The translations under genes and the position numbers were made by a program. Below are positions 5,218-38,795 of a DNA stretch of 50,663 nt, one piece after another (the first letter of the stretch is position 1; each line of letters starts with the position of its first letter). The notes below the pieces were generated by a model, which saw only the letters and a program-made list of their open reading frames with translations, was not told the DNA's origin and searched no databases. This stretch comes from Thermoflexales bacterium (GTDB taxonomy: Bacteria; Chloroflexota; Anaerolineae; B4-G1; DUEL01): assembly GCA_014360895.1 (NCBI GenBank), contig JACIWQ010000009.1:1-50663 (forward strand). The letters are read 5' to 3'.

Positions 5218-6405
5218 TCACGGGCACCGCACAATGTCTTGCGCCCAGAGGCAGTCCGCACAGGAGGGGCACCATCCCCAGCAGCCGTCGTTGGCCTCGG
5301 CAATGTCGCAGGCGTCCCGAAGTTGGCAGTCCACACAAGAGGGAAAGTTGAAGCGCCGCACCTCCGCCCGGAAGCGAACGTACTCATCCGAGGTCCAGAT
5401 GTCGGCCAGGCTCCGCTCGTTGACGTTCCCGAAGGTGTAGCGGGCCACGTTCTTGCGGCGGCCGAAGATGTAGTAGGGATAGGTGTGGGAGAGGGCATAA
5501 CAGGGGCTGACGCCCCCGTCCCACCCCACCACCAGCGCCCGGTTGGTGACGAAGCGGCAGCGCCGTTCGGCCCCCCAGTTCATCCGGGGGAGTTCCGCGA
5601 TCCCCCAGAGCAGCCATCCGCCGCTCTCCAGCGCCCACCCGGGGGGCAGCGGCAGCGACGGCGTCTCATCCCGCCGATAGAGCGCCTCCTCGGCCATCTC
5701 CGGCGTGTGCGGCAGGACGTGGGTGACCAGGACCCGGTTGGCCTCCAACCGCTGCGCCAGGTCGGAGAGCGCGGGCAAGTCGGCGACGTTTCGCTTCAGG
5801 ACGACGAACTCCAGTTGAATCCGGGGCAGCGCCCGCCCAAGCGCGTGCTTGATGCGGTTCAGGGCCTCCACGTTCGCCACCACCGCCCGTAGGTCCGCCC
5901 CCTGCCGGACGTCGGCGAAGATTTCCGGACGGGCCCCGTCCACCGAGATGCTCAGCGCGTCCACCCCCATCTCCACCAGCGCCTGCGCCCGCTCCTCGTC
6001 CAGCAGCGTGCCGTTGGTGCTGACGGTCACCCGGACGCCCAGGGCCTTCACCGCCGCCAGGTAGTCCAGCGCGCGGGGGTGGGCGAAGGGCTCCCCGTAC
6101 CCGCCGAAGAAGACCTCCCGCAGGTCGGGCAATTCCCGCAGTCCCGCCAGCACCCGCTCAAAGGTCGCGTCGGTCATATCCGCCAGCGGCTCTCCCCAGA
6201 CGTTGCGGACGCAGGTCCGGCAGGCCAGGTTGCAGCGGGTGGTGATTTCCAGGTAGACCTTGCGGACGTCGGGCCGGAGCGGGTGCAGGACGATGCCCCC
6301 CTCCGTCTCCTGCAAGAGCATCTCCGCCCCGGCCTTTAGCCCGTACCGGCGCCGCAGCCCCTCCGGCAGCACCACTCTCCCTTCAGCATCCACTCGTACC
6401 CTCAC
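5218..6405 (-). CDS. SpoVT/AbrB-radical SAM-SPASM protein, tungsten-oxidoreductase maturase-like
   Basis: 395 residues. Residues 1-45 form a SpoVT/AbrB-like swapped-hairpin domain (RVVLPEGLRRRYGL). The radical SAM core follows with CNLACRTC (Cys 58, 62, 65), which binds the SAM-coordinated cluster. A Cys-rich SPASM-like tail (about 295-395) should bind auxiliary clusters. This AbrB-rSAM-SPASM order and the TTRCNL/CVRNVW/EPLADM segments match what I recall of the tungsten cofactor oxidoreductase radical SAM maturase family (TIGR04317). No aldehyde:ferredoxin oxidoreductase gene lies in the window, so the client enzyme would be elsewhere. It is followed upstream on the same strand by the double-UGA gene. 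The start abuts a TTCACGTTTCAC repeat. Confidence 0.8.
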   Translation of the reverse strand: MRVRVDAEGRVVLPEGLRRRYGLKAGAEMLLQETEGGIVLHPLRPDVRKVYLEITTRCNLACRTCVRNVWGEPLADMTDATFERVLAGLRELPDLREVFFGGYGEPFAHPRALDYLAAVKALGVRVTVSTNGTLLDEERAQALVEMGVDALSISVDGARPEIFADVRQGADLRAVVANVEALNRIKHALGRALPRIQLEFVVLKRNVADLPALSDLAQRLEANRVLVTHVLPHTPEMAEEALYRRDETPSLPLPPGWALESGGWLLWGIAELPRMNWGAERRCRFVTNRALVVGWDGGVSPCYALSHTYPYYIFGRRKNVARYTFGNVNERSLADIWTSDEYVRFRAEVRRFNFPSCVDCQLRDACDIAEANDGCWGWCPSCADCLWAQDIVRCP

Positions 6406-6480
6406 GTTTCACCCCTCACGTTTCACTTTTCACTTTTCACGTTTCACTCTTCACGTTTCACTCTTCACGTTTCACTTTTC
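6405..6480. repeat. TTCACGTTTCAC intergenic repeat, copy 1
   Basis: An imperfect tandem array of TTCACGTTTCAC/TTCACTTTTCAC units fills the space between the radical SAM gene and the double-UGA gene. The family recurs at 9233-9302, 17305-17342, 37917-37957, 38521-38565 and 38706-38795. It lies between genes in every case. Confidence 0.8.
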
Positions 6481-6784
6481 ACGCTTCACCCTCCCACGGC
6501 TCCTCAAACTGCAGCACGAACCTCCCATACCCGTCCACGTAGAAAATCATCTCCTTCGCCCCCGGCTTGAGGGTCGCCAGGAGTTTCCGGGAGACGTAGA
6601 CGGTCAGGTCGTCCGCCTCAAAGCGGACGAACTCTTCCGGATTTTCGGGTTCGCCCATCCGACCGGATGAGCCCTCAAAGAAGATTCATCAATCCAGGCA
6701 GACAAGGCGGCGGGCGATGTTGAGCACCCCGCCCCGCTGGCGGATGAAGTCCTGCAGCCAGGTTGAGGGAATCGCGACTTTCAT
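6479..6784 (-). CDS. Probable selenoprotein with tandem UGA (Sec-Sec) codons, CC/Se-motif-like
   Basis: Read from ATG 6784 (preceded by AAAGGAG), the frame runs 31 codons (MKVAIPSTWLQD...VCLD). It meets two adjacent UGA codons at 6689-6691 and 6686-6688, then continues 68 codons to UGA at 6479. Both halves look coding: the downstream part reads GEPENPEEFVRFEADDL then TVYVSRKLLA. The 101-residue layout resembles the small CC/Se motif (seleno)protein family, in which the motif is a Cys-Cys or Cys/Sec pair; here both positions would be selenocysteine. A conventional call would give a 31-residue stub and a separate 59-residue ORF from ATG 6658. A SECIS-like hairpin lies at 6653-6672. Its neighbour is a radical SAM/SPASM maturase. 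The role is unknown; a redox or metal-cofactor job is inferred. The alternative is a pseudogene. Confidence 0.72.
6653..6672 (-). promoter_or_regulatory. Candidate bacterial SECIS element
   Basis: On the minus strand an 8-bp stem (GCTCATCC with GGATGGGC, one G-U pair) closes a GGTC tetraloop. It starts 13 nt after the second UGA and 16 nt after the first. The E. coli fdhF SECIS also presents GGUC in its apical loop about 11 nt plus a short stem after UGA, and SelB reads that loop. No bulged U is obvious on the 5' side, so SelB recognition remains to be shown. Confidence 0.6.
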
Positions 6785-6822
6785 TTTTCTCCTTTAACCG
6801 TAGGGATGCAGAGATTACCAAG

Positions 6823-6853
6823 AAATCCGCGTTCATCCGCGTTCATCTGCGTC
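6823..6853. repeat. GCGTTCATCCGCG intergenic repeat, copy 1
   Basis: Tandem copies of CCGCGTTCATCTGCGT-type units lie just downstream of the Fe-S protein gene. The same family occurs at 14757-14785 and 50479-50521. Confidence 0.7.
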
Positions 6854-7405
6854 CTATTTCTTCGGCCCGATGGCGGGCAGGTCCACGTCCAGCAGCGCGG
6901 CCAGTTCCTCCCGCTGCGCCGCGTACTGCGGGTCCGCAAAGAGCGGCGTACAGGCCTCCAACTTGACCTGTCCGGCGGCCAGACGGTTGGCAAAGGCGAA
7001 GCAGGAGGCTTCGCCGCAGGCCTTACAGTTGGTGCGCGGCAGAAGTTTGTAGAGTTCCAGGCCGGTGGGACGGCGGCGGGTCTCGTAGTTGGGCTCAATC
7101 TGGTCCCGCCGCTCCCAGGTCCGGTTGACCAGGGCGATGATGCCCTCTATCTCCTTGATAGCCGCCTCCCGGTCCTCCACGTTGCTGACGGCAATCTGTG
7201 TCGGCTGGAAGACGACGTAGTGGCCGGCCTTGGTCCACCGCAGGGACGGGACCGCCGGTTCGTAGACCGCGCCGCGCAGAGTGGCGTTGAGGTACGGGAA
7301 GACCTCGCGGATGTCGTTGGGCAGGTGGGCGACCGCGCTGAACCGCTCCGCCCCCGGCTCACACGGCGGGGTGAAGACCTCCAGGTCGTATTTGTCTATC
7401 AGCAT
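6854..7405 (-). CDS. Fe-S domain protein (PF04060-like), copy 1
   Basis: 183 residues. A C-x2-C-x4-C-x16-C motif (NCKACGEASC, then Cys in KLEACTP) in the C-terminal third matches the 4Fe-4S FeS domain found in corrinoid Fe-S protein/CODH subunits and RnfB. The N-terminal ~120 residues form a conserved-looking domain shared with the gene at 9298-9828, which has the motifs VFPYLNA and an RR/RRR-LPRxNC lead-in in both. It lies upstream of the double-UGA gene on the same strand, separated by a repeat. A role as electron donor or metallocofactor carrier for the neighbouring maturase is inference. The start has GAGGGGG upstream. Confidence 0.78.
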   Translation of the reverse strand: MLIDKYDLEVFTPPCEPGAERFSAVAHLPNDIREVFPYLNATLRGAVYEPAVPSLRWTKAGHYVVFQPTQIAVSNVEDREAAIKEIEGIIALVNRTWERRDQIEPNYETRRRPTGLELYKLLPRTNCKACGEASCFAFANRLAAGQVKLEACTPLFADPQYAAQREELAALLDVDLPAIGPKK

Positions 7406-7603: not shown

Positions 7604-7912
7604 ATGCGATCGGTAGAACGGGAGTTGCTGGAACTCCGGACCCGGGTGGAGCGGCTGGAGGAGCGGCTGAACCGGTTAGCGGGCGCAGAGCCGGAAGCCG
7701 CCCCATCCCTGCCAGACCCCTCAGACCCGGCCCAGATTCGGGCCTGGCTGAAGGCCCAGGGCATCATCCGGGACCCGACCCCCGAAGAACTCCGGCTGGC
7801 GGCGGAGTGGGAAGCACTCCCGGAAGAGGAGAAAGAGGCCATCCGGCGGGAACTGGACCACCTGCCCCCTGGTCCGCTGGCCAGCGACATTATCATTGAG
7901 AACCGCCGCTGA
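7604..7912 (+). CDS. Putative antitoxin-like partner of the PIN protein
   Basis: 102 residues from ATG 7604, supported by AAGGAG at 7591-7596. An N-terminal heptad-like helix (about 1-30, rich in L/E/R) suggests a coiled-coil. An acidic middle follows, then a C-terminal SDIIIENRR tail. It is 2 bp upstream of the PIN gene and has its own strong promoter, the usual antitoxin-first arrangement. It has no obvious AbrB, RHH or Phd fold, so the antitoxin role rests on position only. Confidence 0.6.
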   Translation: MRSVERELLELRTRVERLEERLNRLAGAEPEAAPSLPDPSDPAQIRAWLKAQGIIRDPTPEELRLAAEWEALPEEEKEAIRRELDHLPPGPLASDIIIENRR

Positions 7913-7914
7913 GA

Positions 7915-8423
7915 ATGGCCACCTACTACCTGGACGCCAGCGCGCTGGTCAAGTACTACATCCTGGAACCCGGCAGCACCTGGGTGCGGGAACTGGTAGA
8001 CGTTTCGGTCCCTGATAACGGCGCCCGGGCCAACTCCATTCTGGTCTCCGAAGCGAGCATCGCGGAGTGCGCGGCGGCTTTTGCCGTTCTCTTCCGTACC
8101 AGGCGCATCAGCCTGCGCGCACGGGATGGCGCATTCCGCGCCTTTATGCATCATCTGGCCACCGCCCGATTTCACCCCATCCGCGTCCTCACGGAAGATT
8201 TCTATACCGCTGCGCACCTCACCCAGCGCCACCCCCTCAAGGCCTACGATGCGGTCCAGTTGGCCGTCGCCCTGCGATGCCAGCAGGTGTTGGCCTCGTT
8301 CCCGTCCCCCTCACCTTCGTCAGCGGCGACCGGACGCTCCTGACCGCCGCGCAGTCCGAGGGACTCCTCACCGATAACCCCTTTGACCACGTCGCCCCCG
8401 AAGATACGCCGCCCCCTCTGTGA
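7915..8423 (+). pseudogene. PIN-domain toxin (VapC-like), frameshifted
   Basis: The start MATYYLDASALVKYY carries the first conserved PIN Asp (YLDAS). SEASIAECAAAF and the YDAVQLAVAL segment with the later acidic residue follow. After ALRCQQ (about 8285) the frame drifts into SFPSPSPSSAATGRS and stops at 8343. The expected C-terminus (VPLTFVSGDRTLLTAAQSEGL, in part) continues in another frame to a stop at 8423. A one-base deletion near 8285-8295 would explain both. The last acidic active-site residue (SGD) is therefore lost from the product. The toxin is probably inactive, or this is a sequencing error. Confidence 0.75.
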
Positions 8424-8476: not shown

Positions 8477-8842
8477 TCAGACCCGCCGGGCCAGCGCGGT
8501 GTAATCCGCCCCCAGCAGGGTGCTGATCTGGAATGCGACGTCCGCGAAGTACTGCTTCAGTTCGCTCAGGGCTATGTCCCGTTCCACGATAAGCGGGTGG
8601 GACTCGGCCTGATTCCGCAGCCGGTAGAACCGGTCCACCTCCTCCCTGGGCAGGTCCTCCCCCGCCTGCTGACGGGCCAGCAGGCTCTGGTAGAGCGCCT
8701 GGAACTCCTCCTCCAGCGCGCGGGCCTCCGGGTCGGCCTCCAGGCGCGCCTGGGCCTCCAAGTACTCCCGCACGGGCTCGCTGGAAGCCAGCGCTCGGCC
8801 CAGCGCCTCGCAGGCCCGCTGCAACTCTTCGGATAACGGCAT
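8477..8842 (-). CDS. YlbF/YmcA-family protein, copy 1
   Basis: 121 residues from ATG 8842, with AAGGAGG upstream; the open frame before it lacks a good start. The sequence is nearly all helical (SEELQRACEALGRAL...), which is typical of the Com_YlbF family. In B. subtilis YlbF, YmcA and YaaT form the RicAFT complex, which binds 4Fe-4S clusters and aids RNA processing and competence. It lies 11 bp after the second YlbF-family gene, so the pair is probably an operon. No YaaT homologue is in the window. Confidence 0.75.
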   Translation of the reverse strand: MPLSEELQRACEALGRALASSEPVREYLEAQARLEADPEARALEEEFQALYQSLLARQQAGEDLPREEVDRFYRLRNQAESHPLIVERDIALSELKQYFADVAFQISTLLGADYTALARRV

Positions 8843-8853
8843 CGTCGTCCTCC

Positions 8854-9210
8854 TTATCCACAGCAACTGCGCCGGGCGTTGGCGGCGAAATCCACCCCCG
8901 CCGCCCGGCTGATAGCCTCGTCCACCTCCTGGAACAGGGCCCGCACGGCGCTCTCCGCCGCCCGGTATGCCTGGACCGAGGGGTAGGCTTCCAGTTGAGC
9001 CTGGAGTTGCCGCAGGGCCCGCAGGTGCTCGGCGCCGTCGCCCCGCCCCCACTGGAGCGCGGACTGGTGGGCGCGGATCTGCTGCAGCAGGTCCTGTACC
9101 GCCTCGTCGTGATTGATGGCCCGCGCGGCCTCCCAGAGCGCCCGAAACTCCGGCGTCTCCCGCACGGCCTCCACCAACTCCCGAATCGCCAATCCTACAT
9201 CAACTTCCAT
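8854..9210 (-). CDS. YlbF/YmcA-family protein, copy 2, Cys-Cys tail
   Basis: 118 residues, helical, with the YlbF-type core (INHDEAVQDLLQQIRAHQ) and a C-terminal GVDFAANARRSCCG. The terminal CCG could bind a cluster or metal, in line with the Fe-S binding reported for the RicAFT proteins. It is upstream of the first copy on the same transcript, with a GGAGGTGGAG-type ribosome-binding site. A TTCACGTTTCAC repeat separates it from the Fe-S gene upstream. Confidence 0.75.
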   Translation of the reverse strand: MEVDVGLAIRELVEAVRETPEFRALWEAARAINHDEAVQDLLQQIRAHQSALQWGRGDGAEHLRALRQLQAQLEAYPSVQAYRAAESAVRALFQEVDEAISRAAGVDFAANARRSCCG

Positions 9211-9232: not shown

Positions 9233-9302
9233 CTTCACGTTTCACGTCTCACTTTTCACGTCTCACGTTTCACGCCTCACGCTTCACGCTTCACGTTTCA
9301 CA
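9233..9302. repeat. TTCACGTTTCAC intergenic repeat, copy 2
   Basis: A tandem array of TTCACGTCTCAC/TTCACGCTTCAC units. It overlaps the last few bases of the Fe-S gene ending at 9298. Confidence 0.8.
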
Positions 9303-9828
9303 CCCCCACCAACTCCGCCAGCCGACGGCCTCCTTCGGCGAAGGCTTCCTCCCAGAGATGTGGACACTCGTCCAGATGACGGTCGCCCCGGAGCAGCGCG
9401 GCGGCGAAGGCCATACAGGTCGGCTCCCCGCAGTCGCCGCAGTTCCTGCGCGGCAGGAGCCGGTAGGCATCCAGCGGCCCGATCAGGTTCCGTCGTTCGT
9501 GGCAGGGTGTGATTTCCTCCCGTCTCCGCCAGACATCGTTGCACAGGTCCTGAAACCACCGCAGTTGGGCCAGCGCGTCCTCCGCGCCGTCTACCTTCGC
9601 CATCACCGCCCCGTCCGGATAGAAGGTCAGGATGCGTTCCCCCCGCTTGACGGTGACCGTGTTGTTCTCCGGGTTGTACATCAGATTGGGCACGACGGCG
9701 TTCAGGTACGGGAAGACGGGCGAGACGTCGCCCGAAAACCGGGCGATGACCCGGTTCTTGGTCGGGTCGGCGATGCAATCCAGGATACGGACGATAGTGA
9801 AACTGGAAAGCAGGACGTCGTCGCTCAT
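9298..9828 (-). CDS. Fe-S domain protein (PF04060-like), copy 2
   Basis: 176 residues. C-x2-C-x4-C-x16-C (NCGDCGEPTC, then Cys in HLDECPHL) matches the FeS domain more closely than copy 1, since CGEPTCMAFA is the classical consensus. The N-terminal domain is paralogous to the gene at 6854-7405: both carry VFPYLNA and a predicted beta-rich YxPxxxTVxVKxGxx-like segment. It sits between the YlbF pair and the ABC exporter. Partner and substrate are unknown. Confidence 0.8.
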   Translation of the reverse strand: MSDDVLLSSFTIVRILDCIADPTKNRVIARFSGDVSPVFPYLNAVVPNLMYNPENNTVTVKRGERILTFYPDGAVMAKVDGAEDALAQLRWFQDLCNDVWRRREEITPCHERRNLIGPLDAYRLLPRRNCGDCGEPTCMAFAAALLRGDRHLDECPHLWEEAFAEGGRRLAELVGV

Positions 9829-10063: not shown

Positions 10064-10813
10064 TCAATCCGCGCGTCGGGCCAGCGTGCGCACCGCCAGT
10101 GCGAAGAACCCTGCGGCGAAGACCGCCAGAGCCCCCAGATCAAGTACCGTCGTGGGCAAAACGCGTCCGTCCAGCGCCGCCCGCAGCGCTTCCACCGCGT
10201 AGGTCAGTGGCAGGAGACGGGCCACGGCCTGCAGCGCGGGCGGCATGGACGCCAGCGGCACGAAGATGCCGCCCAGGAACATCATCGGGAAGCGGATAAA
10301 GTTGGCCAGCGTCTGCGCCTCAAAGACCTCCCGGACCGCCACCGAGACGAACGCCCCCAGCGCCGAGAAGGCCGCCGCCGAAAGGAGCAGCGCCAGCACC
10401 AGCAGCGGCCAGTTGACGGAGCCCACGCCGAAGACGACCAGGGCAACAGCCAGCACCGCCGCCGTCACCGTCAGCCCGAAGGCCATCCCGCCCAGGAGTT
10501 TCCCCGCCAGCAGCGCCGGGAGCCGCACAGGAGCCAGGAGCAGCCGCTCCAGCGCGCCGGTCCGCTGCTCAAAAACGATAACGATGGCCTCCATAGAACT
10601 GGAGCCGAACAGGAGCGTCAGCGCCAGCAGTCCTGGCGTCAGCGAGCGCAGGTCGCCCGGGTTGCGGATGGCAAAGGCCAGGACGAAGGCGAACGGGAAC
10701 AGAATGCCCCAACTGATGTTGGGCGGCTTGAGATAGTAGGCCCGCAGGTCCTTCAGGGCGATGTACCACATCCCGCGCAGATCGTCGCGCAGCACGAAAT
10801 GCCCACTCCTCAC
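10064..10813 (-). CDS. ABC-2 type transporter permease
   Basis: 249 residues with about six hydrophobic segments (roughly 35-55, 65-85, 105-130, 140-160, 175-195, 220-245) and the ABC-2 motif region ALERLLLAPV. It is the membrane half of an exporter whose ATPase is the gene upstream at 10871. ATG 10771 (MWYIALKDLR) is an alternative start that would remove 14 residues. Drug, lipid or metal-thiol export is possible; the substrate is not evident. Confidence 0.85.
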   Translation of the reverse strand: MRSGHFVLRDDLRGMWYIALKDLRAYYLKPPNISWGILFPFAFVLAFAIRNPGDLRSLTPGLLALTLLFGSSSMEAIVIVFEQRTGALERLLLAPVRLPALLAGKLLGGMAFGLTVTAAVLAVALVVFGVGSVNWPLLVLALLLSAAAFSALGAFVSVAVREVFEAQTLANFIRFPMMFLGGIFVPLASMPPALQAVARLLPLTYAVEALRAALDGRVLPTTVLDLGALAVFAAGFFALAVRTLARRAD

Positions 10814-10817
10814 GAAA

Positions 10818-10872
10818 CACAGCGTATGGACGGAGTACGGAGTACGAAATACTCCGTACTGCGTATTCCGTT
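10818..10872. repeat. TACGGAGTACG intergenic repeat
   Basis: Units of GGAGTACGGAGTACGAAATACTCCGTACTGCG form a palindrome-prone array between ABC permease and ATPase. The family recurs at 16060-16122, 18750-18763 and 35269-35312, and as the 3' ends of the genes ending at 438, 44936 and 47873. Confidence 0.75.
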
Positions 10873-11800
10873 ATGTCCTCCCCTTCTCCGCCAGCATCAC
10901 CTCGGCGCTCAGGCCGGTGAGGTGGACGAAGACGTCCTCCAGCGTTGGGCGGACGGTGTTGAGGGCCAGGACCCGTCGGCCTTCGGCGGTTGCCCGGGCC
11001 AGCGCCGCCTGGGTCGCCTCCTCCACGCTGCGCCCCTCAAACCGGAGCGTCTCCGTCCGGCCATCCCCGTCGGCCAGCGTCGCCTCCACCGCCAGGCGGG
11101 CCGGCAGCCGCGCCTTCAGCCCGTCCACCGTGTCCAGCGCCACGATGCGCCCCTGGACGATGATGGCGATGCGGTCGCACAGCCGCTCCGCCTCCTCCAG
11201 GTAGTGGGTGGTCAGGAAGACGGTCACCCCTTCCCGGCGAAGGTCGGCGATCATCCCCCGCAGGCCGCGCGCGCTCATCACGTCCAGGCCGGTAGTCGGC
11301 TCGTCCAGGAAAAGGAGCGGCGGACGGTGGGCCAGCGCGGCGGCGATCGTCAGCGCCCGCTTCATCCCGCGCGAGAGTTTGGCGAAGGGCACGTCCCGTT
11401 TGTCGCTCAGGCGGAAGCGGGCCAGCAGTTCTTCGGCGCGCGCCTTGCGCTCGCGGCGCGGCACGCCGTACAACTGCATGGAGAAGAGCAGGTTGTCAAA
11501 GGCCGAGAGTTCGTCGTAGAGGTTGGACGTCTCCGGCACGACGCCGACGCGCTTCTTGATCTGCGTCACCTCGGTCGCCAGGTCATAGCCCAGGACGCGG
11601 GCGCCGCCGGCGGTGGGACGGGTCAGGCCGGTGAGCATGCGTACCGTCGTCGTCTTCCCGGCGCCGTTGGGGCCCAGGAAGCCGAAGACCTCGCCCTCGC
11701 GCACCGTGAATTCTATCCCCTCCACCGCGCGGACGGGCGGCGCGCCCCGCGCCCCGGGATAGTGCTTGGTCAGTTGGGCAACCTGGATGACGTCGCTCAC
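10871..11800 (-). CDS. ABC transporter ATP-binding protein (DrrA-like)
   Basis: 309 residues. Walker A GPNGAGKTT, Q-loop region, signature LSRGMKRALTIA and Walker B LLFLDEPTTGLD are all present, with a C-terminal extension typical of DrrA/CcmA-type exporters. It pairs with the ABC-2 permease at 10064. Its start overlaps the stop of the TSUP gene upstream by 4 bp, so exporter and permease are co-transcribed with the sulfur-handling genes. Confidence 0.9.
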   Translation of the reverse strand: MSDVIQVAQLTKHYPGARGAPPVRAVEGIEFTVREGEVFGFLGPNGAGKTTTVRMLTGLTRPTAGGARVLGYDLATEVTQIKKRVGVVPETSNLYDELSAFDNLLFSMQLYGVPRRERKARAEELLARFRLSDKRDVPFAKLSRGMKRALTIAAALAHRPPLLFLDEPTTGLDVMSARGLRGMIADLRREGVTVFLTTHYLEEAERLCDRIAIIVQGRIVALDTVDGLKARLPARLAVEATLADGDGRTETLRFEGRSVEEATQAALARATAEGRRVLALNTVRPTLEDVFVHLTGLSAEVMLAEKGRT

Positions 11801-12552
11801 TTCACCAGGTCAAAAATCATCTTGGCCGCGATCAGCCACAGCAGCACGCCGATCACCCTCTTCAGTTGCGCGCTGGAGAGTTTGACCTTCATCAACTGGG
11901 AGCCGACGAGGGAACCGGCGGCCGCCATCACGGCCATAATGCCGACAAACGTCGGGTTCAGGCCGCCCAGGGTGACGTGGCCCAGAAAGCCGGAGAGGGA
12001 TGAGAAGACCACGATCAGCGAGGTCGTCCCGGCGGCGATTTTCGGGTCCAGCCCGATCCAGTTCAGGACGGGCAGGATGAAATTCCCCCCGCCGACGCCC
12101 AGCATCCCACCCAGAAACCCGGCCACTGCCCCGATCCCTGCGCCGGCCGTAACCTCCGCGCTCCGGGCCAGCGGCCGGCTCCGGGTCCTGGCCCGGTAGA
12201 ACAGCATCATGAAGCCGGCGAAGACCAGGAAGGCCGCGAACAGGCCCAGGAGCAGCCGCTTGTTCACGTAGGGCGTCAGGCGGGCACCGACAGGCGAGAG
12301 GGCAACGGCAGTGATCAGCACCGGCAGCCCCACGCGCCAGTTGATCAGACGGCCCCGCCAGTAGTTGATGGCGGCGAACAGCAGGCTCACCACGTTGAGC
12401 AACAGGGCGATGGGCGTCGCTTCGGCCAGCGGTACCCCCAGGTAGTAAAAGAAGGGCACGAACAGGAAGGCCGCGCCGATGCCCGCCATGGCCAGCAGTC
12501 CGGAGAAGAGAAACACCACTCCGGCGCTCAGGACGTAGAAAACCGGGCTCAT
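11797..12552 (-). CDS. TSUP (TauE/SafE) family permease, copy 1
   Basis: 251 residues, about 8 hydrophobic segments. It has the duplicated TSUP glycine-rich motifs (GLLAMAGIGAAF near the N-terminus and GFLGGMLGVGGGNFI in the middle). TSUP proteins move small anions, often sulfite, thiosulfate or sulfonates. It follows the rhodanese gene by 9 bp. Confidence 0.88.
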   Translation of the reverse strand: MSPVFYVLSAGVVFLFSGLLAMAGIGAAFLFVPFFYYLGVPLAEATPIALLLNVVSLLFAAINYWRGRLINWRVGLPVLITAVALSPVGARLTPYVNKRLLLGLFAAFLVFAGFMMLFYRARTRSRPLARSAEVTAGAGIGAVAGFLGGMLGVGGGNFILPVLNWIGLDPKIAAGTTSLIVVFSSLSGFLGHVTLGGLNPTFVGIMAVMAAAGSLVGSQLMKVKLSSAQLKRVIGVLLWLIAAKMIFDLVK

Positions 12553-12561
12553 CGGGGCGCC

Positions 12562-12960
12562 TCAGTCCTGCTTCTTTTGGAGCGTCGCCCGCACCTTGCC
12601 CGGCATCAGTTCCGGGAACAGATTGGCGTACCCGCCCGGCATAATGCGGACGTTGTCAAAACCGTGTGCGTGCAGGTAGGCGAACGCCACGTTGGCCCGG
12701 TCGCCGCCGGAGCAGAAGGTGACCACCAGTTTGTCGCGCGGAACCTCGTCCAGGCGCGCGGGCAACTCGTTGATGGGAATCTCCAGCGCAAAGGGAAATC
12801 TCACGAACCCTTTCTCCTCCGGCGCGCGCACGTCCAGCAGGACGGCCTCGCCCTTCGCCCACTTTTCAAAGAAGACGGCCGGCTCAACCTTGTGCTGGCC
12901 GGTGCTCCAGTACTCAAAGTCCAACCTGCTCAGCCATTGAGAGAAGGTGTCCTCTGGCAT
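12562..12960 (-). CDS. Rhodanese-like sulfurtransferase
   Basis: 132 residues from ATG 12960, preceded by AAGGAG. Single rhodanese domain with the persulfide-carrying Cys in FCSGGDRAN and the LLDVRAPEE strand. It transfers sulfane sulfur to a thiol acceptor. It is flanked by two TSUP permeases, which fits handling of thiosulfate or persulfide. The frame is open far upstream, but the overlapping TSUP gene is the real occupant there. Confidence 0.9.
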   Translation of the reverse strand: MPEDTFSQWLSRLDFEYWSTGQHKVEPAVFFEKWAKGEAVLLDVRAPEEKGFVRFPFALEIPINELPARLDEVPRDKLVVTFCSGGDRANVAFAYLHAHGFDNVRIMPGGYANLFPELMPGKVRATLQKKQD

Positions 12961-13022
12961 TTTTGGCTCCTTGTGATGTAGAATTCGGGTGGCCGAAGGA
13001 GAGCCTCCGGCCACCCCCGTCC

Positions 13023-13943
13023 CTACCAGATGCGAATCCCGAAGTAGCCCAGGACGAACTTGAGGGCGACGTACAGGAAGTAGATGCCGAAGATGAACTT
13101 GAGGGTATGCGGCTTCAGGCGCTTGATGACGGCCGCGCCGACCTGGGCGCCGACAATCGTGCCGCCGCCCAGCAGCCCTCCGGCCACCAGCGCCACGAAC
13201 CCCTGGGCCACTTTGATCAGCCCGCCCACCAGCGCCAGCGGGATCATAACGGCCAGCGAGGTGCCCATCGTGATGTAGACGGGCGCGGAGAAGAGGTAGA
13301 TGAGCCCGGGCACCAGCGCGTAGCCGCCGCCCAGCCCGGCGATACCGGTAGCGATGCCGACGATGAAGCCGAAGACGGCCATTCCCCAGCCGCTGCCGGG
13401 AATCTCGTTGCCTTCTTTCTTCGCCGGCCCCTTCCCGGTGAAGCCCTGGACCCCCTCCCAGATCATCCGGATGGCGGGCCAGAGGAAGAGCAGGCCCAGG
13501 ACCAGCCCCAGGAGCGCCTGATGGGCAGCCAGAAAGGTGAAGAGCCACGAGCCCAGGAGCACGCCCAGGACGCCCCCACCGCCCAGCCAGAGCGCCGCCC
13601 GCCGGTCCAGATTGCGCCGCACCAGGTGTCCCCACGCCCCGGAGATGGCGGTGAAGATGACGGCGAAGAGGGTCGTGCCCACCGCCAGCGGAGCCGGGAA
13701 GCCCATCCAGAAGTGGATGACGGGGAGCATCACGCTGCAGCCGCCGGTGCCGATGAGGCCCCCCAGCAGCCCGGCGAAGAAGCCCACCACCAGCAGGAGA
13801 ATCCCCCGGCCGATGCCGATGGGCGGTTCTCCCTGGGCATGAACCCCAGCCAGCGCGGCCCAGATGACGATGACCGCCACGATGGCCAGCAGCACCAGTG
13901 TGACGGCCTGTGTCCGATACCACGGAGCCTTTTCTGCGGCCAT
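13023..13943 (-). CDS. TSUP (TauE/SafE) family permease, copy 2
   Basis: 306 residues. An N-terminal signal-anchor-like helix is followed by TSUP half-motifs GLLGGLIGTGGCSVM and GIATGIAGLGGGYAL and about 8-9 membrane segments. It carries an extra charged cytoplasmic loop (GKGPAKKEGNEIPG) that copy 1 lacks. The start has AGGAGGTAAGG upstream. It probably exports or imports a small sulfur anion. Confidence 0.88.
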   Translation of the reverse strand: MAAEKAPWYRTQAVTLVLLAIVAVIVIWAALAGVHAQGEPPIGIGRGILLLVVGFFAGLLGGLIGTGGCSVMLPVIHFWMGFPAPLAVGTTLFAVIFTAISGAWGHLVRRNLDRRAALWLGGGGVLGVLLGSWLFTFLAAHQALLGLVLGLLFLWPAIRMIWEGVQGFTGKGPAKKEGNEIPGSGWGMAVFGFIVGIATGIAGLGGGYALVPGLIYLFSAPVYITMGTSLAVMIPLALVGGLIKVAQGFVALVAGGLLGGGTIVGAQVGAAVIKRLKPHTLKFIFGIYFLYVALKFVLGYFGIRIW

Positions 13944-14397: not shown

Positions 14398-14670
14398 CTA
14401 TTTAGCGCCGTCCAGCGCCTCCCGCAGCCAGGCGACCACTTCCTCCACCTTCGGGATACGCCCGGCGCAGACCAGTTTCTCGTTGATGACCAGCCCCGGA
14501 GTGAAAAGGATCGGGTATTTGGTGATTTCAGCGTAGTCGGTGATGTGCTGGATGGTGGCCTCCAGGTCGGGCATCTCTTCGGCCAGGACCTCCAGCGCGG
14601 CGACGGCCTGCTGCTCCACCCAGTCGCAGGCCTCGCAGCCCGGTCCCAGAACCTTGATGTTCAGCGGCAT
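14398..14670 (-). CDS. Thioredoxin-fold redox protein (CxxC)
   Basis: 90 residues from ATG 14670, preceded by AAGGAGGG. CEAC (Cys 12 and 15) follows the first beta-strand (IKVLGPG). The later TPGLVIN cis-proline segment completes the fold. The size fits the small TIGR00412-type redox-active disulfide proteins that often accompany arsenic- or sulfur-linked permeases. It is immediately upstream of the damaged AhpD-like gene. Confidence 0.88.
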   Translation of the reverse strand: MPLNIKVLGPGCEACDWVEQQAVAALEVLAEEMPDLEATIQHITDYAEITKYPILFTPGLVINEKLVCAGRIPKVEEVVAWLREALDGAK

Positions 14671-14756
14671 ACGTCCCTCCTTGGGTGCGCAAGAATAGAC
14701 TTTATCGGAAATAGCGCCAGGTGGCGCAGCACGTATCTCTCTCGATAAGGAAAATC

Positions 14757-14804: not shown

Positions 14805-15254
14805 TTACGCCACAGTAATCTCCGGCTCTATGATGACCTCTGACTTAATGGAGTTGGCGACGAGGCTGTATTTGCGGGCGCTCTCCACCGCCCGCCGAAC
14901 CCGCTTCTCCACGACCGCCGGGTCCTCGCCCCCCGCGCGCACCACAATCTTCGGCCACAGCCGGACGTGGGTGAAGATTTCCGTCCGGTCCAGTTCTATC
15001 AACTTGGTCCCCTCGGCGCGGCACTCGTAGGAGACCAGGTCCAGTTTGAACCGCTCCGCCGCCCAGATGAACATCATCATAATGCAGGTGTTGACGGCGG
15101 CGACGAAGGCGTCCTCCGGCGTCAGGACGCCGGGATGGCCGTGGGCATCGGGCGGCGCGGAGAAGTCCATCTCCGGCCCGTTGCCCATCACGATGTGCCC
15201 CCAGTGCTCCCCCTTCCAGGTGACGACGGTGTAGTAGGTGGCTGTTCGGCTCAT
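14805..15254 (-). CDS. OsmC-family peroxiredoxin-like protein
   Basis: 149 residues from ATG 15254, with AAAGGAG upstream. The OsmC fold is indicated by GVLTPEDAFVAAVNTCIMM with Cys 57 at the usual active-site helix. A second Cys (about 78) sits in the strand that follows. OsmC proteins reduce organic hydroperoxides and some handle persulfides. The context of rhodanese, TSUP and thioredoxin-fold genes favours thiol or persulfide chemistry. Confidence 0.88.
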   Translation of the reverse strand: MSRTATYYTVVTWKGEHWGHIVMGNGPEMDFSAPPDAHGHPGVLTPEDAFVAAVNTCIMMMFIWAAERFKLDLVSYECRAEGTKLIELDRTEIFTHVRLWPKIVVRAGGEDPAVVEKRVRRAVESARKYSLVANSIKSEVIIEPEITVA

Positions 15255-15267
15255 CGGTCTCCTTTGC

Positions 15268-15295
15268 GTAGGACAACTGCTCGCAGTTGTCCTAC
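15268..15295. repeat. 13-bp perfect inverted repeat over a stop codon
   Basis: GTAGGACAACTGC at 15268-15280 and its reverse complement at 15283-15295. The UAG stop of the DGC gene ending at 15292 lies inside the right arm, so the repeat supplies that gene's terminus. It could also act as a transcript-stabilising hairpin. Confidence 0.75.
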
Positions 15296-16047
15296 GAATG
15301 AGCAGCGCGTTTTCGGCAGAACTTCTCGTACTCCCGCGCCAGCGCTTCGGCGTAGGCGGCCTCCTCCTCCGGCGGGATGGGGTTGTAGATGCGGGTGGTC
15401 TCCAGCAGTTCCCGCGTCGTCCCATTGCCGGGCCGCTTGCCGGCCTGGTAGAACTGCTCAAAGATGGCCGGCAGCGCGATGAGGGTGACCACCCGCCCGT
15501 TGATGGCCACCTTCTGCACCGGAATGCCGGAGCCGCAGGAGCAGAGGGTGATGGCCTCCTCCTCGTCCTCCGGAGCCTCTGGGGCCTCTGCGGCTGGCTC
15601 CTCCACAGCGACCTCCACCTCCGCCTCGGCCTCCCGCTTCCGGCCCAACAGTTCGTCCACCAGCCGGGCCACCTCCTGGGCGACCAGGTCCGCCGCCTGC
15701 ATCCCGGCCTCGTTGAGGCGACGGGTCCCCCGGATGGGCCCCAGGCCGTTCCCCGCCACCACGTCCGTCACGACAATGCTGGCGGCGGGCTTGCCGGAGT
15801 ACATCTCCGTCGCCCGCGCCGCGCACCGCTTCTCGCAGCCATCTATGGCGACCGTCGGATAGAAGCGGGCGAAGGCCCGGTCCCCCTCCCCGCCGGCCAG
15901 AAAGAGCGGCAGGCAGATGGTCACCGTGTCGTTGGGGCGCAACGCCTCCAGCACTTTCAGCGCCGCCACCCGTGAAACCGTCCCCTCCGGCAACTCCTCC
16001 CCGGAGCAGGCCACAATCCCCACCTTCTTCTTCGGCAACAACGGCAT
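15292..16047 (-). CDS. DGC-domain putative zinc-binding protein, long form
   Basis: About 251 residues from ATG 16047, placed by GGAGGG five bases upstream; GTG 16059 is an alternative. The N-terminal VACSGEE and AIDGCEKRCA segments are the paired Cys motifs of the DGC (PF08859) putative metal-binding family. An acidic linker (about 165-190) leads to a C-terminal part with CSCGSG and a final FCRKRAAHS. It is paralogous to the short DGC gene upstream. The role is unknown; metal or thiol sensing or transport is inferred from context. Confidence 0.8.
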   Translation of the reverse strand: MPLLPKKKVGIVACSGEELPEGTVSRVAALKVLEALRPNDTVTICLPLFLAGGEGDRAFARFYPTVAIDGCEKRCAARATEMYSGKPAASIVVTDVVAGNGLGPIRGTRRLNEAGMQAADLVAQEVARLVDELLGRKREAEAEVEVAVEEPAAEAPEAPEDEEEAITLCSCGSGIPVQKVAINGRVVTLIALPAIFEQFYQAGKRPGNGTTRELLETTRIYNPIPPEEEAAYAEALAREYEKFCRKRAAHS

Positions 16048-16059
16048 CGTTCCCTCCAC

Positions 16060-16122
16060 GAATTACGGAGTACGGAATACGGAATACGGAGTACTGCGTA
16101 TTGCGTATTCCGTATTCCGTTT
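16060..16122. repeat. TACGGAATACGG intergenic repeat
   Basis: Mirror arrays of TACGGAGTACGGAATACGGAAT and ATTGCGTATTCCGTATTCCGT form a long imperfect hairpin between the two DGC genes. Confidence 0.75.
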
Positions 16123-16522
16123 ATGCTTCCCCTTCCAGCGCGTCTATCGCCGCCGCGACCTCCTCCGCCAGCGCCCGGGCCAGTTGCTGACCCTCCGGGT
16201 TCAGCGCCGAGATGCCCTCCGGCTTCAGGTCGCGGTGTTTCCGGAAGGCATCCAGGACGGTGAAGGAACGGGCCACCGGCAGGCCGCTCTCCTGCACCAT
16301 TTTGGTTGCGCAGGCCAGGCGACAGCCGTCAATGGTGACGGTGGGATGGCCCGCCACCGCTGCCCGTGCTTCTTCGTCCCCCAGCACCAGCAGGGAAAGG
16401 GCGACCAGTTCGGTCCGGTCCGGGCGCAGGTCCTCCACCACGGTGTACGCGGCCTCCCGGCTCACCGTCCCGAACGTCTTCCCGATCCCGCTGCAGGGAA
16501 CCACTACGACTTTTCCGCTCAT
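16121..16522 (-). CDS. DGC-domain putative zinc-binding protein, short form
   Basis: 133 residues, with GGAGGAGAT before the ATG. VVVPCSGIGKT and TIDGCRLACATK are the DGC family's two Cys motifs. It is about half the length of its neighbour, with no C-terminal CSCG region. The family is often found near permeases and thioredoxin-like genes. No enzymatic activity is established to my knowledge. Confidence 0.82.
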   Translation of the reverse strand: MSGKVVVVPCSGIGKTFGTVSREAAYTVVEDLRPDRTELVALSLLVLGDEEARAAVAGHPTVTIDGCRLACATKMVQESGLPVARSFTVLDAFRKHRDLKPEGISALNPEGQQLARALAEEVAAAIDALEGEA

Positions 16523-16843: not shown

Positions 16844-17296
16844 TTATTTCTTCCTCATCTCCTCCTCGGCGACCTCCCGCACCCGCTCCAGGTACGCCTG
16901 GGCGTCCATCAGGTGGGCCCGGTCGGCCTCCCAGTCCGTCGCCGCTATGACCGCCAGCCAGCCCTCGCCGTAGGGGTCCTCGCTGATGACCTCGGGGGTC
17001 ATCTCCAGCGCGGGGTTGACCTCGGCCACCGTCCCGCTCACCGGCGCCGGGACGACAATGTCCGTCTTCATCGTCTCAATGGACGCGACCTCCTCGCCGA
17101 AGGCCACCACCGTCCCCACCGGCTTCACCTCGGCGAAGGCGACGTCGCCGCCCGACTGCTGGGCGAAGTCCGAAAGACCGATACGCACCCGGCCGTCCCC
17201 CTCCGGCCGCGCCCATACCCCCTCCGGATGGTAGTATCGGTCGGTCGCGAACCGGAAGGTGAACTTGTCCACCGTCAGTTCCAGAAACTCGCTCAT
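16844..17296 (-). CDS. GcvH-like lipoyl carrier protein
   Basis: 150 residues from ATG 17296 (GGGGAG upstream). It matches glycine cleavage H-protein architecture: GLSDFAQQSGGDVAF, the lipoylation loop SIETMKTD with Lys 77, and NEDPYGEGW-like SEDPYGEGWL. The loop differs from the usual ESVKA. The other glycine-cleavage genes (gcvT, gcvP) are absent. It is paired with lpdA and set among sulfur-handling genes, so it may be a lipoate-binding protein for sulfur oxidation (LbpA-like) rather than glycine cleavage; that is inference. A C-terminal basic helix (EEEMRKK) is extra. Confidence 0.85.
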   Translation of the reverse strand: MSEFLELTVDKFTFRFATDRYYHPEGVWARPEGDGRVRIGLSDFAQQSGGDVAFAEVKPVGTVVAFGEEVASIETMKTDIVVPAPVSGTVAEVNPALEMTPEVISEDPYGEGWLAVIAATDWEADRAHLMDAQAYLERVREVAEEEMRKK

Positions 17297-17304
17297 CGCT
17301 CCCC

Positions 17305-17342
17305 TCACTTTTCACGCTTCACGTTTCACTTTTCACGTTTTA
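17305..17342. repeat. TTCACGTTTCAC intergenic repeat, copy 3
   Basis: A short array between lpdA and the GcvH-like gene. It reaches into the last codons of lpdA. Confidence 0.7.
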
Positions 17343-18739
17343 CGATGATAGTGAATCGTCGCCCCTTGGAAGCCCAGCGCGGCCTCCAGGACAGCCTCCG
17401 TCAGCGTGGGATGGGCGTGGGTCGTCCAGGCCAGGTCGTCGGCGGTGGCGCCGGTCTGCACCGCCAGCGCCCCCTCGGCGATCAGTTCGGTGACATGCGG
17501 GCCCATCATATGGACGCCCAGCACCCGCCCGCTGCCGGCCTCGCAGACGATGCGGACCAGCCCCTCCGTCTCCCCCAGAATCTGGGCGCGGGGATTGGCG
17601 GAGAACGGGAACTGGAGCACCCGGACGTCGGCCCCCTGCTGGCGGGCCTGCTCCTCCGTCAGCCCGACGCCCGCCACTTCCGGTGAGGTAAAGATGGCAC
17701 TGGGCACGGAGCGGTAGTCCACCGCCCGCTTCTGCCCGGCGATGTTCTCCACCGCCACCCGCCCATCCACCATCGCCTTGTGGGCCAGCATCATCCCGCC
17801 CACCGCGTCGCCGATCGCCCAGACGTTCGGGACGTTCGTCCGCAGGTACTCGTCCACCGCAATGGCGCGCCGGTTCATCCGGATACCGACCTCCTCCAGC
17901 CCCAGGTCGGCGGTGTTGGGCCAGCGGCCCGTCGCCAAAAGGACCCGGTCGCCCTCCACGGCCTCTTCGCCCTTCGCTGTGGTGAACCGGACCCGCAGCC
18001 CACCCTCCGCCTCCTCCACAGCCTGGACCGTCGCGCCGGTCCGGATGTCCATCCCTCGCCGCCGCAGGACCACCGCCAGCCGTTTGGCAATGGCCTCGTC
18101 GGCCGCGCCGGGAAGGAGATTCGGCATCATCTCCAGGACGGTCACCCGGCTCCCCAGGGCCTGGTAGATGCAGGCAAACTCCAGCCCGATCACCCCGCCG
18201 CCGATGACAATCAGGTGGGCCGGGAGGGTGGAGACGTCTAGGGCCTCCGTACTGGTCACCACGCCGGGCAGGTCCAGGCCCGGGATGGGCGGGCGGGCCA
18301 TCACCGAGCCGGGGGCCAGGATGATGTGGCGGACGACGACCTCCGTCGTCCCCCCGGCCCCGTCGGCCACGGCGAGGGCGTCCGGGCGGACCAGGCGGCC
18401 CCGGCCCCGGACCACCGTCACCTTCCACTCCTTGAGCAATTGCTCCACGCCGCCCACCAGCCGCTCCACGGCGGCCCGCTGGTAGGCCATCATCCCCTCC
18501 AGGTCGGGCGCGGCCTCCGGGATGCGGACCCCGTACTCCGCGGCGCGGCGGGCGCGGGCCAGCAAGTCCGTCGCGGTGACCAGTGCCTTCGTCGGGATGC
18601 AGCCGACGTTAAGGCAGGTCCCGCCGACGCGCGCCTCCTCCACCAGCGCGACGCGCATCCCCAGTTGGGCAGCCCGCAGCGCGGCCACGTACCCGCCGGG
18701 TCCCGCCCCCAGAATCGCGACATCGTAGACCTCGGTCAT
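17333..18739 (-). CDS. lpdA: Dihydrolipoamide dehydrogenase
   Basis: 468 residues, full length. N-terminal FAD site GAGPGG, redox-active disulfide GGTCLNVGC (Cys 42 and 47), NAD site GGGVIGLEFA and the C-terminal base HAHPTLTEAV are all present. It reoxidises the dihydrolipoyl arm of a carrier, here most likely the adjacent GcvH-like protein, passing electrons to NAD. No 2-oxoacid dehydrogenase subunits are nearby, supporting a specialised role. Confidence 0.93.
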   Translation of the reverse strand: MTEVYDVAILGAGPGGYVAALRAAQLGMRVALVEEARVGGTCLNVGCIPTKALVTATDLLARARRAAEYGVRIPEAAPDLEGMMAYQRAAVERLVGGVEQLLKEWKVTVVRGRGRLVRPDALAVADGAGGTTEVVVRHIILAPGSVMARPPIPGLDLPGVVTSTEALDVSTLPAHLIVIGGGVIGLEFACIYQALGSRVTVLEMMPNLLPGAADEAIAKRLAVVLRRRGMDIRTGATVQAVEEAEGGLRVRFTTAKGEEAVEGDRVLLATGRWPNTADLGLEEVGIRMNRRAIAVDEYLRTNVPNVWAIGDAVGGMMLAHKAMVDGRVAVENIAGQKRAVDYRSVPSAIFTSPEVAGVGLTEEQARQQGADVRVLQFPFSANPRAQILGETEGLVRIVCEAGSGRVLGVHMMGPHVTELIAEGALAVQTGATADDLAWTTHAHPTLTEAVLEAALGFQGATIHYHRKT

Positions 18740-18988: not shown

Positions 18989-19351
18989 TCAGTTTACCTC
19001 CACCAGGAAGATGGATTTAGAGAGAGGGGTCTCCTGACAGCGGGGACAGGTGCACTGCGGGATAGGGGGCGCTTCCGTCACCGGCCCGAGGACGTCCTCC
19101 AGCAGGTGGGCCACCCGCGGGTCGGCCAGCCGGTAATAGACGAAGAGCCCCTCCCGCCGCTGGGAGATCACCCCGGCCTCCCGCAGTACCCGCAACTGCT
19201 GGGAGACGTAGGGCTGGGGAGCCCCCAGCGCCGCCTGCAGATGGCAGACGCAGGCCTCACCGCGCCGCAGAATGTCCAGAATCCGCAGGCGCGCCGGATG
19301 GGCCAGAAGAGAAAAGAGTTGGATAATCGGCTCGTACGGGTCTTCGTTCAC
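18989..19351 (-). CDS. ArsR-family transcriptional regulator
   Basis: 120 residues from GTG 19351. An in-frame TTG at 19369 lies inside the operator and too close to the inferred transcript start. The winged helix has LFSLLAHPARLRILDIL and a recognition helix QPYVSQQLRVL. The CVCHL sequence sits where alpha-3 metal sites (ELCVCDL) occur in ArsR/SmtB sensors. An extra C-terminal CTCPRC may add a thiol or metal site. It heads the long minus-strand gene run (lpdA to the ABC exporter) and probably autoregulates through the palindrome at 19361-19382. Confidence 0.88.
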   Translation of the reverse strand: MNEDPYEPIIQLFSLLAHPARLRILDILRRGEACVCHLQAALGAPQPYVSQQLRVLREAGVISQRREGLFVYYRLADPRVAHLLEDVLGPVTEAPPIPQCTCPRCQETPLSKSIFLVEVN

Positions 19352-19360
19352 AGCGCCAGT

Positions 19361-25473: not shown

Positions 25474-25615
<142 letters not shown>

Positions 25616-38503: not shown

Positions 38504-38566
38504 CCGACATCACCTCCTTCCGTATCACGTTTCACGCTTCACGCTTCACGCATCACGCTTCACGTT

Positions 38567-38599
38567 AAAAAGAAACCCCCGCGCCAGCCGACGCGGGGG
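38567..38599 (-). terminator. L10 leader attenuator terminator
   Basis: CCCCCGCG (38592-38599 and pairing 38576-38583) forms a GC stem on the minus strand followed by TTTCTTTTT (38567-38575). It lies between the L10 leader and rplJ. Confidence 0.88.
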
Positions 38600-38708
38600 A
38601 GTCTTCCTCATCGGACATCCAATCAGCCCGATGAGGGAATGGACACGCTCTCCAGCCTCGGCAGGCAACTTTCAGCGCCCGTTGGCGCGCCTGCTGTCTT
38701 CGGCCTCA
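38600..38708 (-). ncRNA. Ribosomal protein L10 leader
   Basis: The minus strand carries GAAGACAGCAGGCGC, a variable arm, then CCTGCCGAGG, the core of the L10 leader that L10(L12)4 binds. A second stem CCTCATCGG/CCGATGAGG at 38606-38636 precedes the terminator. Together they should provide feedback attenuation of rplJL. Confidence 0.88.
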
Positions 38709-38795
38709 CTTTTCACGCTTCACGCTTCACGTTTCACGTTTCACGCATCACGTTTCACGCTTCACACGCTTCACGCATCACGTCTCGCGCCTCAC
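38706..38795. repeat. TTCACGTTTCAC intergenic repeat, copy 6
   Basis: The longest array of this family, between rplA and the L10 leader. It extends into the last codons of rplA. Another short array (38521-38565) is on the other side of the leader terminator. Confidence 0.8.

Follow-up and report, generated by a model that had tools for sequence, protein, structure and literature searches.

The first selenoprotein described with two consecutive selenocysteine (Sec) residues is an algal protein disulfide isomerase, PDI_e, with the motif GUGUU (PMC7539508); no other report of consecutive Sec was found in the literature open to searching, outside which most subscription papers lie. A Sec-Sec motif is not among the prokaryote motifs in a 2026 review, whose table gives the CC/Se motif family NF041239 as CxxU with one Sec (PMC13188914). 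Further systems with which the present locus can be compared are the A-type Fe-S carriers (IscA/SufA/HesB, including a HesB-like selenoprotein with one Sec, TIGR01911), the TIGR04317 radical SAM maturases linked to tungsten-containing aldehyde ferredoxin oxidoreductase (AOR), the Sao and Tso selenoprotein neighbourhoods of Haft and co-workers, and ars clusters. Here we analyse a stretch of 50,663 nt (the window, meaning the whole of that DNA) from a Thermoflexales bacterium (GCA_014360895.1, contig JACIWQ010000009.1, positions 1-50,663), in which a small open reading frame (ORF) with two adjacent in-frame UGA codons, referred to below as UU, lies between a gene for an Fe-S protein (FeS) and one for an AbrB-radical SAM-SPASM protein (rSAM). 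UU shares consecutive Sec residues with the algal PDI_e; the latter is however a eukaryotic protein disulfide isomerase and unrelated to UU in protein and setting.

The three genes lie wholly on the minus strand and are transcribed in the order FeS, UU, rSAM, with gaps of 69 nt and 73 nt, in agreement with the head-to-tail arrangement on one strand and the coordinates given in the first-pass annotation of this DNA. The features of this region, including the selenocysteine insertion sequence (SECIS), are:

6854-7405, minus strand: FeS, 183 aa, with a C-terminal PF04060 4Fe-4S domain (46.9 bits), 69 nt upstream of UU
6479-6784, minus strand: UU, tandem-selenocysteine protein of 101 aa with Sec32-Sec33; coding part 6482-6784, stop codon 6479-6481
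6686-6691, minus strand: two adjacent in-frame TGA (Sec-Sec), codons 32-33, seen in the sequence and invariant in a 25-row alignment
6653-6672, minus strand: bacterial-type SECIS hairpin, GCUCAUCC-GGUC-GGAUGGGC, from an alignment pairing test
5218-6405, minus strand: rSAM, AbrB-radical SAM-SPASM protein of the TIGR04317 family, 395 aa; PF04014, PF04055, PF13186

Between UU and rSAM (6405-6480) there are short tandem repeats of the GTGAAACGTGAA type, and similar ones follow UU at loci L008 and L009.

The double UGA of UU is true tandem Sec-Sec coding, as the first-pass annotation had proposed. A protein search of 400 genomes of the phylum Chloroflexota returned one strong relative, in genome G011, that was 43% identical and carried both TGAs, and a search of a contig collection returned four close relatives besides it (85–90% identity). 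With a five-row profile searched against 396 genomes of the class, UU was found in 25 genomes at 26 places, with both TGAs present everywhere; when 400 genomes from across the phylum were searched by profile, it turned up in the window genome and G011 only. Both Sec columns are invariant in the 25-row alignment, as are P46 and G87 and no others, and a Cys-Cys form was absent among all homologues found, the phylum-wide profile search of 400 genomes adding none. Codon-position bias showed that the frame past the TGAs is coding, and differences within the genus were concentrated at third positions (3, 3 and 16 differences at codon positions 1, 2 and 3 after the TGAs between the window genome and G436; comparisons with G659 were out of register and were excluded). 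The double TGA is not due to chance, because it is kept in every homologue, is followed by a covarying hairpin and is followed by a coding bias. That the TGAs are ordinary stops, the ORF being a pseudogene or an assembly error, has as its sole support the reading of TGA as stop in translation table 11, and is so improbable that we regard it as ruled out by the retention of both TGAs in 26 genomes with conserved protein after them, the compensatory change in the SECIS and the presence of the Sec machinery. A second copy of UU, designated G596b (L076 1048-1287, on contig C358 of G596), has both TGAs and a deleted SECIS hairpin and is perhaps decaying.

The SECIS hairpin starts 13 nt after the second UGA. 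In the 25-row alignment, which is gapless here, its seven pairs were kept in 98.9% of cells, and pairing fell to 31–51% when the 3' arm was slid by 1–3 columns as a control. Fifteen sequences close the loop with C-G and nine with A-U, a compensatory swap counted with kinship ignored. The codon at this place encodes Leu where the pair is A-U and Arg (or its equivalent) where it is C-G; the protein therefore follows the RNA. The alignment test was decisive for the SECIS, whereas a single-sequence fold of the region, which was no better than shuffles (z -0.53), was not. The window genome encodes SelB (308 bits, contig C241) and tRNA-Sec (70.7 bits, contig C198), and UU has the features of a bacterial selenoprotein gene, namely an in-frame UGA with a close conserved SECIS in a genome with SelB and tRNA-Sec. 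SelB above the cut-off was not found in three genomes of the same order that lack UU (G503, G536 and G551); other UU-less genomes have it.

An NF041239 profile search of the window genome gave no match, and the UU protein itself was then used as query. Window UU scores 28 bits against NF041239, below the cut-off of 40, yet all 25 aligned members match that model (best E 1.5e-11), no other model was matched consistently, and Sec32-Sec33 lies inside the matched stretch (residues 11-69). Because of this combination UU is, judged by sequence, a relative or outlying branch of NF041239. Like that family it is a small protein with a CC/Se motif, but it stays below the cut-off and always has two adjacent Sec where NF041239 has one. 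No arsenic-type neighbourhood was found reported for NF041239 in the accessible literature, from which most subscription papers were missing.

An AlphaFold model built from 25 sequences had a pLDDT (predicted local distance difference test) of 92.4. The nine best PDB chains in a Foldseek search were IscA, SufA, DsrR and related proteins (best E 0.026), and a second look with VIA, covering the Foldseek matches only, again placed the IscA-type group first (Z 3.4–4.6; next unrelated entry 2.4). We infer, with moderate strength, an IscA/HesB-like fold for UU, in which the Sec pair, judged by eye, would occupy the position of the first Cys of IscA in an inter-strand loop. UU would thus resemble A-type Fe-S carriers in its predicted fold, through weak matches, but unlike them it has Sec-Sec in a loop and no C-terminal CxC. 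There was no Pfam match of UU to the IscA family even at E 10, and a PDB sequence profile search gave neither a relative of UU nor a match to an IscA sequence.

The first-pass annotation had considered the three genes a possible stand-alone system. They are instead the distal end of a long ArsR-led, arsenic-type stress cluster, which in strand order reads ArsR (from 19354), Lpd, GcvH-like, DGC, DGC, OsmC, Trx3, TauE, rhodanese, TauE, ABC, FeS2, YlbF (CC), YlbF, FeS, UU, rSAM and DegV. This order was obtained by tblastn with proteins of related clusters, and a plus-strand PIN pair breaks the run. Upstream of FeS the features are:

8477-8842, minus strand: YlbF/YmcA-family protein (PF06133)
8854-9210, minus strand: YlbF-family protein with a Cys-Cys-Gly end (PF06133; NF041416 66 bits against a cut-off of 140)
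9298-9828, minus strand: FeS2, second PF04060 protein (Pfam) and paralogue of FeS, present also in the G011, G468, G438 and G639 regions
10064-11800, minus strand: ABC transporter permease and ATPase, named from sequence; a pair 79–82% identical stands at the G416 UU locus
11797-13943, minus strand: TauE, rhodanese, TauE (PF01925 twice, PF00581)
14398-14679, minus strand: Thioredoxin_3 protein, Trx3 (PF13192)
14805-16513, minus strand: OsmC, DGC, DGC (PF02566, PF08859; the second DGC by tblastn, 42%), in an order shared with G011 and G438
16844-18739, minus strand: GcvH-like lipoyl carrier and dihydrolipoamide-dehydrogenase-like protein (Lpd), by sequence similarity
19025-19354, minus strand: ArsR-family metalloregulator with ACVCHL and C-terminal CTCPRC motifs, 52% to G011 ArsR

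The GcvH-like protein shows 48% to that of G011, which matches PF01597; Lpd was named from its own sequence (GGTCLNVGCIPTK) and its conservation was followed by tblastn. G011 ArsR matches HTH_5/NF033788. The YlbF protein at 8854-9210 (minus strand) ends in SCCG, resembles the halo-CC-star protein HcsL below the cut-off, adjoins the second YlbF gene and is kept in L008. The plus-strand pair (7604-8343; a small protein and a PIN-domain protein, toxin-antitoxin-like) that interrupts the cluster occurs in L008 and L009 also. Elsewhere in the window, a SAM riboswitch (25474-25613, minus strand) and a ribosomal protein L10 leader (38561-38721, minus strand) scored above their gathering thresholds.

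The cluster is not peculiar to the window. G438 and G011 share a similar block of ArsR, ArsP-type permease, GcvH, DGC, DGC, OsmC, Trx3, FeS and UU, to which G438 adds rSAM and AOR. Across the 26 UU loci, same-strand neighbours were ArsR (18), FeS (15, within about 150 bp of UU in 10), Trx3 (14), ArsP (13), rSAM (11, within 100 bp in nine), ACR3 (7) and rhodanese (1), which bears out the linkage of UU to both FeS and rSAM in relatives; these counts are lower bounds because several loci run into the end of their contig. At nine AOR-linked rSAM loci taken as a control, ArsR was found once and Trx3, FeS and ArsP were not found (Fisher p about 0.005 for ArsR, Trx3 and FeS at UU loci against this control). 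Genes for a BadF/HgdC-type activase (ASKHA) lie between FeS and UU in two genomes of the same genus (L008 4921-5937, L009 3557-4573) and just upstream of FeS-UU in G413 (L092 7970-8923), where the cluster (L092 4664-8923) has ACR3, then two dehydratase-like genes, then the activase.

Of 26 ArsR matches, 17 had a CVCHL/CVCDI form, the window's ACVCHL included, and we take CVCHL to resemble the As(III) site of classical As(III)-sensing ArsR. Permeases of the relatives' clusters matched ACR3 (271.7 bits; cut-off 282.8) and ArsP_1 (241.6 bits). The window is thus like an ars cluster in the presumed CVC-type metalloid site of its ArsR, but unlike one in having no arsenite or organoarsenical permease; because neither ArsP nor ACR3 is present, the link to arsenic rests on the window ArsR and on the relatives. 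In the Sao/Tso neighbourhoods, too, selenoproteins are accompanied by ArsR/SmtB regulators, a SaoE-like permease, thioredoxin and DsbD-type parts; compared through their models and the review table, these neighbourhoods differ in that SaoE, TsoR and TsoB were matched below cut-off only, by members of the relatives' clusters.

As the window has rhodanese and TauE and no arsenic permease, the main rival is a cluster for reactive sulfur (persulfide or sulfite), in which ArsR would sense persulfide, rhodanese, TauE, lipoyl proteins and Trx3 would move sulfur, and UU would be a selenol sulfur-transfer or reductase protein. The rhodanese, two TauE, OsmC, DGC, Trx3, GcvH-like protein and Lpd of the window suit it, G011 ArsR also matches BigR (58 bits, below cut-off), and SufE is present in the G355 cluster. 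Nevertheless, ACR3 (7 of 26) and ArsP (13 of 26) are commoner beside UU than rhodanese (1 of 26), and CVCHL is presumably the metalloid-type motif; we consider the sulfur explanation unlikely, though one to be kept in mind.

The rSAM protein scored 412.4 bits against TIGR04317 (cut-off 380), with a MazE/AbrB N-terminus, Radical_SAM and SPASM domains by Pfam. The first-pass annotation had noted its likeness to the tungsten-oxidoreductase maturase family, and the protein indeed passes that family's cut-off and is not placed in an unrelated one. It differs from the TIGR04317 maturases in setting, having no adjoining AOR but UU and FeS for neighbours within an ArsR cluster, and it falls in a clade separate from the AOR-linked members.

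Above the cut-off, TIGR04317 proteins were found in 15 of 25 UU genomes against none of 20 UU-less ones (Fisher p 1.2e-5, kinship ignored), so that co-occurrence with this CC/Se-type protein, suggested earlier as a check, does hold. The UU-less set came entirely from the window's own order, within which alone the counts were 7 of 10 against 0 of 20; in the genus, five UU genomes have rSAM and two UU-less genomes lack it. These figures, with the proximity of rSAM to UU at the loci counted above, would suit a scheme in which rSAM modifies UU itself, for instance by a Se-linked crosslink, as SPASM enzymes do peptides, UU being a dedicated substrate. Against this, no TIGR04317-type match at E ≤ 1e-60 was found in seven of the 25 UU genomes of the class, some of them more than 90% complete; elsewhere the only rSAM above the cut-off adjoins AOR, away from UU; and UU shows no leader-core peptide hallmark. 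We consider a dedicated substrate distinctly improbable. An over-cut-off rSAM gene adjoins AOR in seven UU genomes, and AOR-linked rSAMs exist with no UU beside them. Because UU and rSAM each occur without the other, UU does not qualify as an obligate client of rSAM. Of the roles of substrate, carrier or reductant offered in the first-pass annotation, the first is weakened where taken as obligatory, and carrier or reductant is the role that we favour.

In a tree of rSAM proteins the UU-linked and AOR-linked traits needed two changes each, against seven in shuffles. Window rSAM falls in a UU-linked clade that is sister to an AOR-linked clade; G451/G424 and the G412/G413/G639/G438 group stand separate, and most members of a more distant clade adjoin divergent AORs, those of G377, G355 and G005 belonging to ArsR clusters. 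From this tree and the gene contexts, the family looks AOR-associated at its base, with repeated recruitment into ArsR clusters. Besides the UU-linked members there are AOR-linked ones and ones linked to ArsR with no UU, and a tie of rSAM to UU alone was therefore rejected. One AOR-linked radical SAM gene (L114 2362-3540, on contig C14 of G490) has an in-frame TGA and is either broken or Sec-containing.

The first-pass annotation had also held that AOR is absent here. This is correct for the window but not for the genome, in which the search for AOR suggested there found seven AFOR_C genes, all outside the window. One of them, on contig C79, shares 71% identity with the AOR that adjoins rSAM in G438, and window rSAM is the sole TIGR04317-type match (E ≤ 1e-60) in the genome, both of which favour an rSAM that still matures an AOR encoded elsewhere, with its place beside UU being coincidental or regulatory. 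However, two genomes of the same genus, G463 and G628, retain the C79-type AOR with neither rSAM nor UU, and in G412 and G413 rSAM adjoins UU or lies near it, with no such AOR at E ≤ 1e-90 (genome completeness in these cases 83–97%), and the UU-linked rSAMs stand largely apart from the AOR-linked ones in the tree. These two pairs of genomes argue against AOR as client, though rSAM could still act in trans, and we give AOR maturation little credence.

The reading that we prefer, in which we have about as much confidence as doubt, is that UU is a diselenol carrier for soft metal(loid)s or redox equivalents in an ArsR-controlled cluster, with rSAM as a recruited accessory. The vicinal diselenol of UU would bind and pass on, or reduce, a soft metal(loid), for example As(III) or an organoarsenical, with electrons supplied by Trx3, FeS and the lipoyl proteins (GcvH-like/Lpd) encoded nearby. 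Efflux would proceed through ArsP/ACR3-type permeases, or in the window perhaps through the TauE or ABC transporters, and the cluster would be under the control of ArsR. The TIGR04317 protein, probably recruited from an AOR-associated family more than once, would be an optional accessory that modifies some cluster protein or performs a radical step on the substrate. Several observations weigh against this proposal. An ArsP or ACR3 gene was not found in the window by tblastn with related-cluster proteins; the rhodanese, TauE, OsmC and lipoyl genes equally suit sulfur traffic; no gene of the cluster lies near the UU locus of G659; the counts of rSAM with UU carry no kinship correction; rSAM may act on AORs encoded outside the window; the fold matches, though mutually consistent, are singly weak (E 0.026 at best in Foldseek, Z 4.6 at best in VIA); and UU has, in the alignment, no counterpart of the C-terminal CxC found in IscA.

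The main interest of the locus is the tandem Sec family together with its genomic setting, and this finding is real. That Sec-Sec is never swapped for Cys-Cys suggests a chemistry requiring both selenols, and the gene raises the question of how a single SECIS serves two consecutive UGAs. The radical SAM maturase family is seen here changing partners, and annotation of its members as tungsten-enzyme maturases by score only may therefore mislead. More tentatively, and with rather less than even confidence, the Sec-Sec family would represent a diselenol metal(loid) handler on an IscA-like fold in ArsR clusters, paired with an rSAM lineage that left its tungsten-enzyme client. Side-by-side Sec being almost unknown, UU hints at metal or sulfur chemistry out of the ordinary, and its locus provides a context, stress by metalloids or sulfur, in which it can be tested.

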